This document shows positions 19,491 to 61,591 of a stretch of 64,000 nt of DNA, in pieces; position 1 is the stretch's first letter; the number at the start of each line of letters is the position of its first letter. The notes beneath the pieces were generated by a model that saw nothing but the letters and a program-made list of their open reading frames with translations, was not told the origin of the DNA and did no database searches. The stretch is from Agreia sp. VKM Ac-1783. GTDB lineage: Bacteria; Actinomycetota; Actinomycetes; Actinomycetales; Microbacteriaceae. The translations under genes and the position numbers were made by a program. The DNA lies in NCBI RefSeq assembly GCF_900177765.1, contig NZ_FXWI01000002.1, positions 62,001-126,000 of the forward strand, in the 5' to 3' direction.

Positions 19491-20870
19491 GTGGTAGATC
19501 CAACCGAACTGGTCGTTCAAGCAGATGAGTCTGTGATCGCCGGGTTGGACTATTGGCGAGGTCTCCCGGTCAAGCAGCAGCCGACTTGGCCAGACAGCGT
19601 AGCGGTAGAGTCCGCATCTGCTGAGATCGCGGGCCTGCCGCCACTCGTCTTCGCCGGCGAGGTCGACAACCTCAGAGACAGGCTGGCTGTGGCCGCCCGC
19701 GGAGAAGCGTTCCTGCTTCAGGGAGGCGACTGCGCCGAGACCTTCTCCGGCGCGACGGCAGAGCAGATCCGCAATCGGGTCAAGACGGTGCTGCAGATGG
19801 CCGTCGTTCTCACCTACGGCGCCTCGATGCCCGTCATCAAGATGGGACGCATGGCCGGGCAGTTCGCGAAGCCTCGCTCGAGCGACACCGAGACACGGGG
19901 ATCCGTCACGCTGCCCGCCTACCGCGGAGACATCGTCAATGGGTACGACTTCACTCCCGAGTCCCGCGAGGCAGACCCTCGTCGACTCGTGCAGGGGTAC
20001 CACACGGCGGCGTCGACCCTCAATCTGATCCGCGCCTTCACCCAGGGCGGCTTCGCCGACCTGCGACAGGTGCACGACTGGAACAAGGGCTTCACATCGA
20101 ACCCGGCCAACGTCAGGTACGAGCACCTCGCCCGCGAGATCGACCGGGCCGTCAAGTTCATGATCGCCTGCGGTGCGGACTTCGAGGCGCTGAAGCGCAC
20201 CGAGTTCTTCGTGAGCCACGAGGCCCTGCTCTTCGATTACGAGCGCCCCATGACGCGCATCGATTCGCGCACGGGAACCCCGTACAACACGTCGAGTCAC
20301 TTCCTCTGGATCGGCGAGCGTACCCGCGACCTCGACGGGGCGCACGTCGACTTCCTCAGCCGGGTGCGCAACCCGATCGGAGTCAAGCTCGGCCCCACCA
20401 CGAGTGGCGACGACATGCTGCGGCTCATCGACAAGCTCGACCCGAACAGAGAGCCCGGCCGCCTCACGTTCATCACTCGTATGGGCGCCGGCAAGATCCG
20501 CGACGCGTTGCCGCCCCTGCTCGAGACGATCAAGTCGGCTGACGCGACTCCACTGTGGGTCACCGACCCGATGCACGGCAATGGGCTGACCACGCCGACG
20601 GGCTACAAGACCCGCCGCTTCGATGACGTCGTCGACGAGGTCAAGGGATTCTTCGAATCCCACCGCGCCGCCGGAACGCACCCGGGCGGCATCCATGTCG
20701 AGCTCACGGGTGACGACGTCACGGAGTGCCTCGGCGGCTCCGAGCACATCGACGAGGCCGATCTGGCCACTCGGTACGAGTCGCTGTGCGACCCCCGGCT
20801 CAATCACATGCAGTCTCTCGAACTCGCGTTCCTCGTCGCCGAAGAACTCGGCGAGGCTCGAAAGGCCTGA
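19491..20870 (+). CDS. aroG: 3-deoxy-7-phosphoheptulonate synthase, class II
   Basis: First enzyme of the shikimate pathway, joining PEP and erythrose 4-phosphate. It has 459 residues with class II features: GGDCAETF, KMGRMAGQFAKPRS, SHFLWIGERTR, and WVTDPMHGN and GIHVELTGDDVTECLGG near the C-terminus. I chose GTG 19491 because VDPTELVVQADESV starts where family members usually start; a TTG at 19425 would add 22 residues but lacks a well-placed SD. Class II enzymes in actinobacteria often pair with chorismate mutase; a secreted one lies 4 kb away on the other strand. It converges on the PASTA kinase gene. Confidence 0.94.
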   Translation: MVDPTELVVQADESVIAGLDYWRGLPVKQQPTWPDSVAVESASAEIAGLPPLVFAGEVDNLRDRLAVAARGEAFLLQGGDCAETFSGATAEQIRNRVKTVLQMAVVLTYGASMPVIKMGRMAGQFAKPRSSDTETRGSVTLPAYRGDIVNGYDFTPESREADPRRLVQGYHTAASTLNLIRAFTQGGFADLRQVHDWNKGFTSNPANVRYEHLAREIDRAVKFMIACGADFEALKRTEFFVSHEALLFDYERPMTRIDSRTGTPYNTSSHFLWIGERTRDLDGAHVDFLSRVRNPIGVKLGPTTSGDDMLRLIDKLDPNREPGRLTFITRMGAGKIRDALPPLLETIKSADATPLWVTDPMHGNGLTTPTGYKTRRFDDVVDEVKGFFESHRAAGTHPGGIHVELTGDDVTECLGGSEHIDEADLATRYESLCDPRLNHMQSLELAFLVAEELGEARKA

Positions 20871-20892
20871 CGACGTTCGACCGGTTCGGTGC

Positions 20893-20930
20893 GCTCGCGC
20901 CCGGATGCCTCACGCATCCGGACGCGAGCG
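20893..20930. terminator. Bidirectional terminator between aroG and the kinase gene
   Basis: GCTCGCG plus CCGGATGC pair with GCATCCGG plus CGCGAGC (fifteen base pairs with one mismatch, loop CTCAC), followed by a short T-rich tail on the plus strand (GGCTTTA). It lies in the 84-base gap of converging genes. Confidence 0.7.
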
Positions 20931-20954
20931 TTCGGCTTTAACTCGATCAGTTGA

Positions 20955-22949
20955 TCAGAGCGCGAAGTTCACAGTAACCTTCGTGCCACGCGGAACGCTC
21001 GTTCCGACCCCGGGATTGATGGCACTGACGGTGAACGCCTCGGGGCGTAGGTCAGCAACAAAGCTGTAATCGAGGTTGAAACCTAGACTTTCCAGTGTTG
21101 CCTTTGCCTTATCCCACGACTTGCCGACGACATCTGGAACCGCGACCGGCTCGGGACCGCGCGAGATCTGAAGCGACATCGTGTCTCCGGGGCGGACGGT
21201 GTCGGCGGGGGCGATCGCCTGGATCACCTTGCCCTCCTCGATGGAGTCGCTGTAGACCTGCTCGCCGGCGGCAGCAGACAGGCCGACCGCCTGCAGGGTC
21301 GCTGTCGCCTCATCGACGGTCTTGTCGGACACGTCAGGGATGGAGCCGGCGGAGACCAAGAGGGAGACAGGCTGTGCCTCGCTGTAGATCACGCCCTCTG
21401 TGGATCCGTTGCTCGCCAGGCTCGCGCCATCGGCGTTGTACGCGTCGAGGACGATTCCCGCCGCTGCGTTGCTCGAGAAGACCTGCGTCTCGCTGCCCAC
21501 CGTGAACTTGGCCTGTTTGATCGCCTGTTCGGCCGAGGCCTTGTCGGCACCGATAAGTTGGGGAAGTGGCAGTTGTGCCGGCCCTGTCGACACGATGAGA
21601 GAGACTGCGGAGTCGCGAGCGACGTGAGCGCCGGACGATGGATCGGTACCGATGACCGTTCCCGCCGGAACAGTCACGCTCGATTGATCGGCACGTGTGA
21701 CCACGACACCGAGCTCCTCGAGGGTCGACTGAGCAGCGTCTGGTGCCTGACCGGCGACCGAAGGGATGGTCAACTGGGCGCCCGGTCCTACTCCGAAATA
21801 CCATCCGGTGCCACCGGCCAGCGCAACGACGAGTATGACGATGCCCACCAGCCAGAACGCACGTCGTCGGCGTACCGCCGTCGATGCTTTGAGGCGCGCC
21901 GCGGGGGCCGAGGCGACCGCGCTGTGCGCTGCTGTCGCCTGGGGGGCTCGCTGCGGCGCTGTAGACGGCTTCGGCACGTTCAGAGCTGAGGTCATGCCGG
22001 TCTGCCTGAACGCCTGCGTCTGCGCCTGCGCCGCCGCGATATCGGGGCTGAGCGCCGCGGGCATAACGACCGTGCGCTGGATACCGGTCGTCGCTGCCTG
22101 GGTCGCGGACATGCTCTGCTCGGTGAGCCGAAGCTGTTCGAGCATGGCGCGACCATCTGTCGGACGGTCGACCGGATCCTTCGCGGTCGCCCATAACACG
22201 AGGTCGTCGAGGTCGCGCGGCACCGAGGGGTTCACGGCGCTGGGGCGGGGCACCTGATCGTTGGCGTGCTGGAACGCGATCTGCATCGGCTGGTCGCCGA
22301 CGAACGGCTGAGCGCCAGTGAGCATCTCGTACATCATGATGCCGGCGGCGTAGATGTCGCTTCGTGCGTCTGCCGTGCCTCGGGTCAGGAGCTCGGGGGA
22401 GAGGTACGCGATCGTTCCGAGCAGCGCCTGGCCGGTGGCCGTGTTGGCCGAGGTCGCGCGAGAGAGTCCGAAGTCGCCGATCTTGATCCGGCCGTCGTCG
22501 GCGAGCAGCACGTTCTCGGGTTTGAGATCGCGGTGCACGATTCCTGCTTTGTGTGCTGCCGCAAGACCTCCGAGAACGGCGTCCATGATGTCGAGGGTCT
22601 GCTCGGTCGTGAGCGTTCCATAGTCTTTCAAGAGGTCACGCAGAGTCATGCCCGGCAGATACTCCATGACCAGGTACGCCATGTCCGAGTCCTGGCCCTG
22701 GTCGAAGACGTTGACCACGTTGGGGTGCGCCAGCCTCGCGGCCGACCGGGCTTCTTGTACGAAGCGTTCTTTGAAGTTGGATTCGTCGGCGAGGTGGCCG
22801 TGCATGATCTTGATGGCGACGCGACGTTCGAGTCGAAGGTCGGTCGCGAGATAGACGGTAGCCATGCCGCCCCGGGCGATGCGCGACCGCACCTGGTACC
22901 GACCGTCGATGAGACGTCCGATCATAGGGTCAGTGGGCGCGGTGGTCAC
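20955..22949 (-). CDS. PASTA-domain Ser/Thr protein kinase (PknB/PknL family)
   Basis: A 664-residue membrane kinase. Kinase domain 12-275: G-loop ARGGMATVYLA, VAIKIMH with the catalytic Lys, HRDLKPENVLL with the catalytic Asp, DFGLSRA and the LSPELL APE-like loop. A single transmembrane helix is near residues 365-388. Four extracellular PASTA repeats follow (VAGQAPD, LIGADKAS, SIPDVSDKT and VPDVVGKSW starts), which in relatives sense peptidoglycan fragments. The neighbours, Rv2175c-like DNA-binding protein, idsA and aroG, match the M. tuberculosis pknL locus. Start GTG 22949 sits six bases after a -10 TAAACT, so leaderless translation is possible. Confidence 0.93.
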   Translation of the reverse strand: MTTAPTDPMIGRLIDGRYQVRSRIARGGMATVYLATDLRLERRVAIKIMHGHLADESNFKERFVQEARSAARLAHPNVVNVFDQGQDSDMAYLVMEYLPGMTLRDLLKDYGTLTTEQTLDIMDAVLGGLAAAHKAGIVHRDLKPENVLLADDGRIKIGDFGLSRATSANTATGQALLGTIAYLSPELLTRGTADARSDIYAAGIMMYEMLTGAQPFVGDQPMQIAFQHANDQVPRPSAVNPSVPRDLDDLVLWATAKDPVDRPTDGRAMLEQLRLTEQSMSATQAATTGIQRTVVMPAALSPDIAAAQAQTQAFRQTGMTSALNVPKPSTAPQRAPQATAAHSAVASAPAARLKASTAVRRRRAFWLVGIVILVVALAGGTGWYFGVGPGAQLTIPSVAGQAPDAAQSTLEELGVVVTRADQSSVTVPAGTVIGTDPSSGAHVARDSAVSLIVSTGPAQLPLPQLIGADKASAEQAIKQAKFTVGSETQVFSSNAAAGIVLDAYNADGASLASNGSTEGVIYSEAQPVSLLVSAGSIPDVSDKTVDEATATLQAVGLSAAAGEQVYSDSIEEGKVIQAIAPADTVRPGDTMSLQISRGPEPVAVPDVVGKSWDKAKATLESLGFNLDYSFVADLRPEAFTVSAINPGVGTSVPRGTKVTVNFAL

Positions 22950-58706: not shown

Positions 58707-59747
58707 TCAGTAGATCGTTCCCATCGCGGCGCGCACCTCGGCCAGCGTTGCCTCCGCGGCGGTATTCGCTGCCTCATTTCCGTCGCGGAGGATTCTGCTC
58801 GCGAGATCAGGATCCTCGGCGAATGCTCGCCGTCTCTGCCTGAGTGGTGCCAGGAAGTCATTCACGGCCGTCGCTGTCGCGGACTTCAAGGCACTGCCTC
58901 CTCGATCGCCGATCTCCTCGGCGAACTCGACAGGGTCGATGTCCATGCAGAGCGCCGCCGTCGACAGGAGCGCTGAGACACCCGGCCTGCGCTCCGGGTC
59001 GAAGGTGATCCTGCGGTCCTGATCTGTGCGGGTGTGACGGATCGCATCGACGGTCTCGTCCGGCGTCATCGAGAGCGAGATCGCGTTGCCGTAGCTCTTC
59101 GACATCTTGCGGCCGTCGAGACCCGGAACCTCCGGCGCCGAGGTGATGAGGGCATCCGGCACGGGAAACACCTGGCCGTAGCGTTCGTTGAACCGCCTGG
59201 CGATCACGCGGGTCATCTCGACATGCGGAAGGTTGTCCTTGCCGACCGGCACCAGATTGCCCTTGCAGAACAGGATGTCGGCCGCCTGATGTACCGGGTA
59301 CGTCAAGAGCAGCCCGCTCAAGGCTCGCCCAGATGCCGCAGCCTCCGCTTTGACTGTGGGGTTGCGGTGCAATTCGGCTTCGGAAACGAGACTGAGAAAC
59401 GGCAGAAGCAGCTGGTTGAGAGCCGGCACCGACGAGTGAGTGAAGATCGTGGCCCGCTGAGGATCTATGCCCGCCGCGAGGTAGTCCAACACCGCGCTAT
59501 ACACGTTCTCACGGACGTGAGCCGTTGTGTCGCGGTCGGTGATGACCTGGTAATCCGCGAGGACCAGGAACATGTCGACGCCGGCCTCCTGCAGTCGAAC
59601 ACGCTCTCGGATCGTGCCGAAGTAGTGCCCGAGATGAAGAGGGCCCGTCGGCCGTTCTCCGGTGACGACGCGAAAGCTCTCGGGGTGCTGCGTTACGGCG
59701 GCCGCGATCCCGATCGAGCGTTCTGCTGTTGCGCTGAGTGAATCCAT
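58707..59747 (-). CDS. trpS: Tryptophanyl-tRNA synthetase, TrpRS II type
   Basis: Charges tRNA-Trp. 346 residues. The HIGH motif reads PLHLGHYFG (after GERPTG) and the KMSKS motif GRKMSKSYG. The wording GERPTGPLHLGHYFGTIRE..RVRLQ and FLVLADYQVITDR matches the auxiliary TrpRS type known from Deinococcus and from the indolmycin-resistant synthetase of Streptomyces rather than the standard enzyme. A normal trpS elsewhere in the genome is likely. ATG 59747 was chosen (MDSLSATAERS) with SD GGGAG six bases upstream; a larger frame to 59819 is an artefact. Leader peptide, hairpins and promoter upstream suggest tryptophan-controlled expression. Confidence 0.9.
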   Translation of the reverse strand: MDSLSATAERSIGIAAAVTQHPESFRVVTGERPTGPLHLGHYFGTIRERVRLQEAGVDMFLVLADYQVITDRDTTAHVRENVYSAVLDYLAAGIDPQRATIFTHSSVPALNQLLLPFLSLVSEAELHRNPTVKAEAAASGRALSGLLLTYPVHQAADILFCKGNLVPVGKDNLPHVEMTRVIARRFNERYGQVFPVPDALITSAPEVPGLDGRKMSKSYGNAISLSMTPDETVDAIRHTRTDQDRRITFDPERRPGVSALLSTAALCMDIDPVEFAEEIGDRGGSALKSATATAVNDFLAPLRQRRRAFAEDPDLASRILRDGNEAANTAAEATLAEVRAAMGTIY

Positions 59748-59753
59748 CTGTGT

Positions 59754-59769
59754 CTCCCGACTGTGGGAG
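59754..59769 (-). promoter_or_regulatory. Hairpin covering the trpS Shine-Dalgarno
   Basis: CTCCC pairs with GGGAG, loop of six bases; the GGGAG arm (59758-59754) is the trpS SD, six bases before ATG 59747. The structure would block ribosome entry until it is opened. Confidence 0.55.
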
Positions 59770-59792
59770 CTGCACGGAGTTCTCGCGCCTGC

Positions 59793-59814
59793 CACGAGCT
59801 GCGTACAGCCCGTG
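59793..59814 (-). promoter_or_regulatory. trpS leader hairpin 3:4
   Basis: CACGGGCTG pairs with CAGCTCGTG (nine base pairs with one G-U) around TACG. Its 5' arm can instead pair with the 3' arm of hairpin 1:2 (CAGCC with GGCTG), so the two states exclude each other. Confidence 0.5.
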
Positions 59815-59828
59815 AACATACTTCAACC

Positions 59829-59844
59829 GGCTGCTAGCGCAGCC
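59829..59844 (-). promoter_or_regulatory. trpS leader hairpin 1:2
   Basis: GGCTGC pairs with GCAGCC around GCTA. Its 5' arm overlaps the second Trp codon of the leader ORF, so ribosomes stalled there would melt it. Confidence 0.55.
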
Positions 59845-59869
59845 ACCATGCGGAGCAGTTGAAGGTCAT
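59834..59869 (-). CDS. Tryptophan leader peptide MTFNCSAWWLR
   Basis: An 11-codon ORF (ATG 59869 to TAG 59834) lying 87-122 bases before the trpS start. It carries two adjacent Trp codons (TGG TGG) just before the hairpin, the classic layout of an attenuator leader. No SD precedes it, but a -10 box TAATCT ends six bases before the ATG, so the transcript would begin at the ATG and be translated as a leaderless mRNA. Streptomyces auxiliary trpRS1 is regulated by such an attenuator. It is too short to prove by coding statistics. Confidence 0.7.
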   Translation of the reverse strand: MTFNCSAWWLR

Positions 59870-59875
59870 GAGAGG

Positions 59876-59881
59876 AGATTA
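59876..59881 (-). promoter_or_regulatory. -10 box of the trpS leader transcript
   Basis: TAATCT on the minus strand, six bases before the leader ATG, three bases downstream of the T-run of the qcr terminator. The -35 would fall inside the terminator hairpin and is not recognisable. Confidence 0.45.
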
Positions 59882-59883
59882 CC

Positions 59884-59925
59884 AAAAATCCGCCGGATCG
59901 CCTCGGGTGAGACGATCCGACGGAT
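59884..59925 (-). terminator. Strong terminator of the qcr operon
   Basis: A 17-base-pair stem (two G-T pairs; arms 59909-59925 and 59888-59904) around ACCC, followed by T5 on the minus strand. It ends qcrB transcription and isolates trpS. Confidence 0.88.
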
Positions 59926-59950
59926 CAGGTTGCGCTACGTCGCCGAGAGG

Positions 59951-61591
59951 TTAGTGGTGACCGCCGCGCTCGATCTCTTTAGGACTCACCGGAGCGATTC
60001 GATCTTCGAAGAACCACCGCGACATCCCCGCGCGCAGGCGCTGAACCGACGTGATCTTACCCTGGGCATTCGGGCGGATCATCAGAGGCTGGTAGTCGTT
60101 GTAGTCGACCAGCTTCCAGCGCTCGTACTCGTCGACTGGCTGGTGCACCTCGATGTACTCGCCGCCGGGGAGTCGAACGATGCGCCCGGACTCGAAGCCG
60201 TGCAGAGCGATCTCGCGATCCTTCTTCTGCAGGGCCAGGCAGACGCGCTTCGTCACGAGGTATCCGACGATCGGACCGAGGATGAGCAGAGCCTGGTTCA
60301 CGTGGATCACGCCCTCGATCGACAGCTGGAAGTGCGTGGCGATGAGGTCGGAGCTCGCAGCTCCCCAGAGGGCGGCGTAGAACAGAACGCCGGCGACACC
60401 GATGGCGGTGCGGGTCGGGGCGTTGCGCGGGCGGTCGAGCAGGTGGTGCTCGCGCTTGTCACCGGTGATCCAGGCCTCGATGAACGGGTAGACGAGCACC
60501 GCGACGATCAGGCCGGTGAGGATCAGTACCGGGATGATGATGTTGAACGACCAGGTACGGTCCCAGAGCTCGAACTCGAGTCCCGGCGGAATCAATCGCA
60601 GAGCGCCGTCGGCGAATCCGATGTACCAGTCAGGCTGCGTTCCGGCCGAGACCGGCGACGGGTCGTAGGGGCCGTAGTTCCAGATGGGGTTGATCGTGAA
60701 GAACGTTCCCATCAGGGCGATGACGCCGAAGACGATGAAGAAGAAGCCACCGGCCTTGGCAGCGAACATCGGCAAGATGGGGGAGCCGACGACGTTGTCC
60801 TTCGTCTGTCCCGGACCCGACCACTGCGTGTGCTTGTGCACGACGACGAAGACGAGGTGCAGGGCGAGCATGACAGCGAGGATGGCCGGCAGCAGGAGGA
60901 TGTGCAGCGAGTACAGGCGTCCGACGATATCCGTGCCCGGGAACTCACCGCCGAAGAGCAGGAACGAGATCCACGTACCGACGACGGGCAGGCCCTTGAT
61001 GAGACCGTCGATGATGCGGAGGCCGTTGCCGGAGAGCAGATCGTCGGGAAGCGAGTATCCCGTGAATCCCTCTGCCAGGGCCAGGATGAAGAGGATGAAG
61101 CCGATGACCCAGTTCAGCTCACGCGGCTTGCGGAACGCGCCCGTGAAGTAGATGCGCAGCATGTGGATGCCGATGGCCGCGATGAACGTCAGTGCCGCCC
61201 AGTGGTGGATCTGACGGATGAGAAGACCACCGCGGACGTCGAAGGAGATGTTCAGAGTCGACGACATAGCCGTGGACATCTCGACGCCCTTGAGCGGAAC
61301 ATACGAACCGTTGTAGACGACCTCGGCCATCGACGCCTGGAAGAAGAACGTGAGGAACGTTCCTGTCAGAAGGATGACGACGAAGCTGTAGAGGGCGACC
61401 TCGCCGAGCATGAACGACCAGTGGTCGGGGAAGATCTTGCGGCCGAACTCTTTGACGACGCCCGAGATGCTCGTTCGCTCGTCGATGTAGTTCGCGGCGG
61501 CCTCGGTGAAGCGGCTTGTGCTGCTCCGCTGTGACGACGTCTGTGTCGGGGCTGGGGCCGGAGCGGTGTCCGGCGTGGTCACTGTACTCAT
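59951..61591 (-). CDS. qcrB: Cytochrome bc1 complex cytochrome b subunit
   Basis: Membrane subunit of the bcc complex that oxidises menaquinol; 546 residues and eight or nine helices. Heme b histidines are in RQIHHWAALTFIAAIGIHMLR and in SLHILLLPAILAVMLALHLVFVVVHKH; the Qo motif PEWY is replaced here by TQPDWYIGF. The long C-terminus (about 420-546) is typical of actinobacterial QcrB. ATG 61591 overlaps the qcrA stop by four bases. Confidence 0.95.
   Translation of the reverse strand: MSTVTTPDTAPAPAPTQTSSQRSSTSRFTEAAANYIDERTSISGVVKEFGRKIFPDHWSFMLGEVALYSFVVILLTGTFLTFFFQASMAEVVYNGSYVPLKGVEMSTAMSSTLNISFDVRGGLLIRQIHHWAALTFIAAIGIHMLRIYFTGAFRKPRELNWVIGFILFILALAEGFTGYSLPDDLLSGNGLRIIDGLIKGLPVVGTWISFLLFGGEFPGTDIVGRLYSLHILLLPAILAVMLALHLVFVVVHKHTQWSGPGQTKDNVVGSPILPMFAAKAGGFFFIVFGVIALMGTFFTINPIWNYGPYDPSPVSAGTQPDWYIGFADGALRLIPPGLEFELWDRTWSFNIIIPVLILTGLIVAVLVYPFIEAWITGDKREHHLLDRPRNAPTRTAIGVAGVLFYAALWGAASSDLIATHFQLSIEGVIHVNQALLILGPIVGYLVTKRVCLALQKKDREIALHGFESGRIVRLPGGEYIEVHQPVDEYERWKLVDYNDYQPLMIRPNAQGKITSVQRLRAGMSRWFFEDRIAPVSPKEIERGGHH

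Follow-up and report, generated by a model that had tools for sequence, protein, structure and literature searches.

How is the second, auxiliary tryptophanyl-tRNA synthetase (TrpRS) gene of an actinobacterium controlled, and what part is played by the short tryptophan-containing reading frame ahead of it? The gene lies in a stretch of 64,000 nt from Agreia sp. VKM Ac-1783 (the window, as the whole analysed stretch is called here), whose genome comprises 3.76 Mb in 7 contigs. This auxiliary trpS (trpS2; 346 aa; 58707..59747, minus strand) encodes a protein that shares 38% identity with the other TrpRS of the genome, located on contig C7, and that scores above the TIGR00233 cut-off. Its best PDB matches were 1yi8 and 2a4m, of which 2a4m bears the name TrpRS II, and the enzyme is probably akin to the auxiliary TrpRS family; an indolmycin-resistant auxiliary TrpRS of S. 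griseus is described in PMC6804068, and indolmycin resistance of the window enzyme is a candidate trait by kinship only. We propose, with a probability of roughly 0.6, that the gene is governed by a Trp-tRNA-responsive translational attenuator in which one RNA pairing (2:3) hands over to another (3:5). The broader claim, that translation of trpS2 responds to tryptophan, we hold with considerably more confidence.

The leader locus in the window

All features of the locus are on the minus strand. A -10-like TAATCT (59876..59881), preceded by TGG as in an extended -10 element, is followed by a CCTCTC spacer that sets it 6 nt from the ATG (59869) of a leader ORF, MTFNCSAWWLR (59834..59869), which ends with TAG (59836-59834) and contains tandem Trp codons (TGG 59848-59846 and TGG 59845-59843). 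Strand 1 (GGCTGC, 59839..59844) can pair with strand 2 (GCAGCC, 59829..59834), and the overlap of this helix (59844-59839 / 59834-59829) with the second Trp codon was correctly seen in the first-pass annotation. Strand 2 can alternatively pair with strand 3 (CACGGGCTGTACGC, 59801..59814), whose possible partners are strands 2, 4 and 5. The 3:4 helix, as read from the window sequence, joins CACGGGCTG (59814-59806) to strand 4 (CAGCTCGTG, 59801-59793), and strand 4, the partner of strand 3 in the presumed OFF state, could otherwise pair with X (GCGCGAG, 59782..59788) inside the 3:5 stem; X can also pair with strand 5. Strand 5 (TCCGTGCAGCTCCC, 59765..59778) would be bound to strand 3 in the ON state, or to the Shine-Dalgarno (SD) sequence and start codon of trpS in the OFF state, the end hairpin consisting of CTCCC (59769-59765) and GGGAG (59758-59754). 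The latter is strand 6, the trpS SD (59754..59758), again read from the window sequence. The 3:5 pairing comprises ten base pairs in the window and up to 11 across leaders, and no T-run follows 3:4 in the window.

An Rfam search of the leader returned no match, and no further leader copies were detected in the window's own genome at E 0.01 under strict filters. The fold energy of the window leader was unremarkable (z = -1.49; 20 of 200 shuffles folded equally well) and, not being significant, was dropped as evidence, and a consensus scan of 59700-60000 found neither a two-hexamer sigma-70 promoter nor a terminator-like site. The case therefore rests on comparison; folding of the leader RNA, which had been proposed as a check, failed for the single sequence, and the helices hold when leaders are compared. 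Further upstream, at 59884-59926, an inverted repeat, imperfect and with a short T-run behind it, may, judged by eye, mark where the preceding operon ends, although the consensus scan did not call it; the gene of that operon is qcrB by reading of the ORF.

Conservation of the leader and of its pairings

We compared 60 loci (L001, L005-L021, L101-L102 and L130-L169). What these show, at the level of sequence comparison, is a leader with leaderless geometry, five helices (1:2, 2:3, 3:4, 5:SD and 5:AUG), complementarity between strands 3 and 5, and no T-run downstream of 3:4. The leader was alignable in 55 of the 60 loci, each time with two or three Trp codons (arranged as W-T-W in L150), which bears out the Trp leader peptide of the first-pass annotation. 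Among the remaining five, L018, L020 and L169 have a Trp leader with a different sequence, L014 lacks a leader, and the contig of L102 starts within the leader. As some loci are near-copies (for example L021/L153 and L130/L137), statistical tests were carried out on 19 representatives less than 85% similar to one another.

In 53 of 55 leaders, the ATG is preceded by a TANNNT motif at a distance of 6-9 nt (6 nt in 32, 7 nt in 19 and 9 nt in 2), against 3.5% expected in shuffles, while an SD-like sequence precedes the leader ATG in 2/55 and trpS in 53/55. Translation of the leader from a leaderless start, as first suggested from a -10 box six bases ahead of the ATG, is thus very likely, even though no consensus two-hexamer promoter accompanies the conserved TANNNT. 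We also considered an N-terminally extended TrpRS starting at an ATG ahead of strand 3, and rejected it because the ATG is not conserved (ATGTYC in 26/55 leaders, in frame in 14 and open in 12).

For the pair counts on the 55 leaders, motifs served to place strands 1, 2 and 4, whereas strand 5 was set where it best fitted strand 3, which biases the counts towards pairing. Standard pairs occupied 329/330 cells in 1:2, 326/330 in 2:3, 485/495 in 3:4 and, with strand 5 best-fit placed, 586/605 in 3:5, with double changes in two columns of each of the last two helices; in a fixed register, the start-codon helix was paired in 323/385 cells and complete in 20/55 leaders. Judged from these alignments, the mutually exclusive 1:2, 2:3 and 3:4 helices are conserved, in agreement with the exchange of 3:4 and 1:2 through 2:3 pairing that had been proposed for the window, and 1:2 and 2:3 are nearly invariant and hence show little covariation. 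An alignment that does without best-fit placement except in the one row from which its columns were taken (A3; 26 of the 55 leaders, MAFFT) gave 93.5% paired cells for the OFF helices (1:2, 3:4 and the start-codon helix) compared to 91.6% in shuffles and 25-51% in slid controls; their covariation was matched by 0/500 shuffles and their number of pair types by 221/500. For 3:5, 96.8% of cells were paired on A3 compared to 34-52% when slid, none of its 11 pairs was invariant, and 50/500 shuffles matched its covariation and 14/500 its paired cells.

We further compared the mean duplex energy of each strand with its own and with random partners (5000 permutations, 19 representatives). Random partners matched the own partner once for 3:4, 5 times for 5b:SD and 8 times for 5a:AUG, followed by X:5a (53), 4:X (74), 3:5 (180) and 2:3 (302). 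The covariation of 3:5 is weak because strand 3 hardly varies; a per-locus shuffle test of 3:5, with the partner placed by best fit, gave p < 0.05 in 39/55 and p < 0.01 in 15/55 leaders, and L154 has a double change in it (GGGTTGC in strand 3, GCAACCC in strand 5). The plainest covariation was found in L138 and L142, where trpS starts with ATGACGGAT instead of ATGGA and strand 5 carries the matching TCGTCGTG. The 5' arm of the end hairpin is able to pair with the SD as well as with the start codon of trpS, and the two pairings co-vary. The first-pass annotation was right that this hairpin masks the SD, and incomplete in that the hairpin also reaches the start codon. By script, no SD hairpin was found in L012, L013 and L151, and no start-codon helix in L167. 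Overall, the comparison with orthologues, for which absence of conservation had been named beforehand as the refuting outcome, found leader and Trp codons both conserved.

A proposed relay and its alternatives

To relate the pairings to access of the ribosome, helices were forced in ViennaRNA on all 55 leaders, and medians are given. With 3:4 forced, the SD was 29% and the AUG 6% unpaired; with 2:3 forced the values were equal (29% and 6%), and with 3:5 forced they rose to 51% and 63%. Compared to 3:4, 3:5 left the SD more open in 49/55 leaders and less open in 1, and the AUG more open in 47/55. These values give no support to 2:3 alone as the anti-sequestor: the exchange of hairpins that had been read as the switch is conserved, but by itself it leaves the AUG closed in this model and would not turn the gene on, and strand 5, missed before, is therefore needed as a partner of strand 3. 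Because 3:4 is the more stable of the two helices (median difference to 3:5, 5.5 kcal/mol), the ON state must be kinetic and OFF the resting state.

In the mechanism that we propose, transcription would begin at the leader ATG. With charged tRNA-Trp plentiful, the ribosome would get to the leader stop and cover strand 2, whereupon strand 3 would fold with strand 4 and the free strand 5 would bind the SD together with the start codon of trpS (OFF). With tRNA-Trp uncharged, because the cell starves for Trp or TrpRS is inhibited, the ribosome would stall on the Trp codons and cover strand 1; strand 2 would then pair with strand 3 and block it from strand 4, which would fold with X, and strand 5, once made, would displace 2 from 3 and so be kept off the SD and AUG (ON). 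It is the stalling of the ribosome, the order of events, the direction of control and the nature of the signal (starvation or inhibitor) that we infer here.

We followed these steps in a co-transcriptional simulation of our own making, simplified and with findpath barriers, on the 19 representatives, transcribed at 0.03 s/nt. Stalling of the ribosome on the first of the Trp codons gave 2:3 in 19/19, with 3:4 reaching 0.5 or more in 1 and 3:5 in 15, and a ribosome at the stop gave 3:4 in 19/19 (0.81 or more), with 3:5 never above 0.21. At other speeds, 3:5 was reached under stall in 14/19 leaders (0.01 s/nt) and in 13 of the 16 that finished (0.1 s/nt). The end state was less uniform: under stall, the AUG was more open in 13 and less open in 5 of 19 leaders at 0.03 s/nt, likewise in 13 and 5 of 19 at 0.01 s/nt, and in 10 and 3 of 16 at 0.1 s/nt; the SD was more open in 5/19 and less open in 3 at 0.03 s/nt.

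Vecchione and Sello reportedly described, in 2010, a ribosome-mediated transcriptional attenuator of an auxiliary antibiotic-resistant trpRS gene (trpRS1) in Streptomyces, and transcription attenuation of that kind, with 3:4 as a terminator lacking a U-tract (or Rho acting there) and 2:3 as the antiterminator, is the best surviving alternative, which we consider unlikely. It draws weight from a survey of auxiliary trpS genes within this protein family (118/120 loci matched; 32 of 80 named loci used), in which 12 loci had a leader and, after it, a GC hairpin and T-run; the script chose the wrong trpS start in several loci, and the survey was used only for the presence of leader and terminator. 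In addition, the trpL2 leader before trpS in S. lividans TK24 has two hairpins and no U-stretch and is still read as termination in the accessible text of PMC8079986. An intrinsic terminator with a U-tract does not fit the leaders compared here, in which, as had been pointed out for the window, 3:4 is not followed by a T-run (at most 2 T in the following 12 nt, 55/55); of the 55, only L146 and L167 have TTTT further on, ahead of the trpS start, the consensus scan of 59700-60000 likewise yielded no terminator-like site, and a co-varying SD/AUG hairpin would be unneeded were the message stopped upstream of it.

Somewhat less likely still is a classical exchange only, in which 2:3 would free the SD directly or via co-transcriptional ribosome loading, and 3:5 would be a by-product of the resemblance of strand 5 to strand 4. 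The conservation of 2:3, at least as good as that of 3:5, and the weak covariation of 3:5 are in its favour, as is the simulated behaviour of the window leader, whose AUG opens under stall mostly by a route other than 3:5 in this model: it was 0.91 open under stall versus 0.17 at 0.03 s/nt with 3:5 peaking at only 0.29, and 1.0 versus 0.49 at 0.01 s/nt with a 3:5 peak of 0.08, while at 0.1 s/nt 3:5 peaked at 1.0, yet the AUG ended closed in both states (0.05 and 0.07). Against it, forced 2:3 leaves the AUG as closed as 3:4 does. Strand 5 moreover conserves its central GYRGCY, whereas the pairing with X and AUG involves its 5' part alone, and other families show a 3:5 pairing made up of different letters. 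Such 3:5-like complementarity, in other actinobacterial loci, reached p < 0.05 in 8/16 loci without and 3/12 with a T-run, with the match placed by best fit, five of the eight near-identical and L038 left out; the recurrence may reflect shared ancestry or convergence. Seven loci of family f27 (L120, L122, L123, L125-L127 and L129) have GTG leaders with Trp codons before an auxiliary trpS and no T-run, and by eye the same loci show SD hairpins together with 3:5-like complementarity in other letters.

Arrest of the ribosome by the leader peptide itself, as a nascent-chain drug sensor and not a Trp-tRNA reporter, is highly improbable: N-terminal residues are alike within groups (MNFNRSAWWWLR, MRFTVSSWWWL), but those outside the Trp-Leu core vary between groups, at least two Trp codons are kept in all alignable leaders, and in the fold of the window RNA the N-terminal leader codons also pair with a downstream GGTTGAA. 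The attenuator with a relay from 2:3 to 3:5 remains our preferred reading.

Relatives, known systems and spread of the leader

Orthologs of the window TrpRS were found in 17/398 sampled genomes of its family f1 (E 1e-60) and in 41/325 genomes of genus g85 (E 1e-90), so the distribution of trpS2 is patchy; among 46 sampled genomes of the class, 16 yielded no locus, one of these (G164) being represented via L020. A quick tree was built from 66 TrpRS proteins; it has many open forks, and its labels were assigned partly by eye. In it, the 21 window-type rows fell in one group of 24, which also includes L018, L177 and L014, and 8/9 T-run rows fell in another group of 14, with L124 apart; the f27 rows branch elsewhere. 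Streptomyces-like loci also fall within this tree, which upholds the suggested kinship of the window gene to the attenuated auxiliary trpS known from Streptomyces. Two loci from a family of another order (L101 and L102, in G511 and G549; 2/85 genomes) have a trpS2 77% identical to the window's and nearly the same leader, which suggests horizontal transfer. On plasmid p1 of Rhodococcus sp. DN22 (L177), a trpS2 73% identical to that of the window is accompanied by a GTG Trp leader.

With the trpRS1 attenuator of Streptomyces, the window locus shares an auxiliary TrpRS gene, a leader with Trp codons and exchanging hairpins, and differs in that Streptomyces-like loci have a T-run terminator whereas the window type has SD/AUG sequestration and strand 5. 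Leaderless poly-Cys ORFs of mycobacteria, the work of Canestrari et al. in 2020, are said to act by translational attenuation of downstream genes. They resemble the window leader in being leaderless sensory ORFs in which one amino acid sets ribosome speed and downstream translation is affected, but the amino acid is Cys there and Trp here, and the genes are others. We know of no 3:5-like relay in the mycobacterial poly-Cys systems. The structure expected of a poly-Cys-type system, one that hides the downstream ribosome-binding site, was found at our loci, where 5b:SD and 5a:AUG co-vary and the AUG is 6% unpaired with 3:4 (median of 55), L012, L013 and L151 being exceptions by script.

The mycobacterial polycysteine ORFs (Canestrari et al. 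2020) are cited in the review PMC9031893. A classical attenuator is a predicted candidate for S. avermitilis trpS2 in PMC1262725, as are translational ileS T-boxes of actinobacteria, which have in common with the window locus the SD-sequestering control of a synthetase gene and differ in relying on T-box RNA with no leader peptide. The trpL2-trpS locus of S. lividans TK24 likewise combines a leaderless Trp leader, recognized from RNA-seq, with hairpins and no U-stretch before trpS, but has one Trp codon and is read as termination, and SD pairing is not mentioned in the accessible text (PMC8079986). The first-pass annotation had regarded the leaderless start and the SD-masking end as marks of a distinct variant; masking of the SD is supported, but the leaderless start is not special, trpL2 being leaderless as well (PMC8079986). 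Among the titles and abstract beginnings listed, there was no report of SD/start-codon sequestration by a Trp leader on trpS, and likewise none of an IS21-type element carrying trpS; as subscription literature was mostly outside the search, both are weak evidence of absence.

An element of the latter kind was found in Microbacterium sp. No. 7 (G956), where a 3.91-kb IS21-type element carries leader, trpS, istB and istA (L170-L175, L176). The six fetched copies are identical, and 5/6 are flanked by direct repeats of 5-6 bp by eye; leader model R1 gave nine copies of equal score in this genome, three beyond the six fetched. In the plasmid copy, the annotation of which was used, trpS lies at 20268-21311 of NZ_CP012698. 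By eye, nearly the same left end as that of the 3.91-kb element lies upstream of the leader in L007.

Across the 398 family genomes, R1 had 16 strong matches (E < 1e-10), 14 before known trpS2 and two in genomes without a trpS2 match at E 1e-60, and 29 weak matches, of which that in G017 is the leader of L018. In G240 (L208 from 1050, plus strand; genus g79), a leader MRNDRANWWRLQ, by reading, with hairpins precedes a GNAT acetyltransferase gene, and in G1190 (L241, minus strand; genus g79) a weaker match (E 1.8e-7), with no clear leader ORF by eye, precedes a similar GNAT gene. In G394 (L209, minus strand), only the first leader half (MNFNRTAWWWLR, strands 1-2) stands before an unrelated gene, which we read as a relic or recombinant. 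That the GNAT enzymes act on TrpRS inhibitors is a guess. More tentatively than the relay itself, we suggest a portable sensor of Trp-tRNA charging, in which the co-transcriptional relay would move between genes (trpS2, GNAT) and, on the IS21-type transposon, between genomes as an inducible defence against natural TrpRS inhibitors.

Collectively, unlike the textbook trp attenuator, this leader appears to hide or expose a ribosome-binding site and start codon and not to stop transcription. How a ribosome held up in the leader could expose a start codon well beyond it is a question to which the 3:5 relay offers a testable answer. The occurrence of the leader on a transposon and ahead of a GNAT gene suggests that nature has a reusable device for sensing TrpRS inhibition. 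Within one auxiliary synthetase family, Trp leaders apparently act in two ways, by termination in Streptomyces-like hosts and, in Microbacteriaceae, by hiding the start codon, and the evolution of attenuation would therefore be traceable on one gene.
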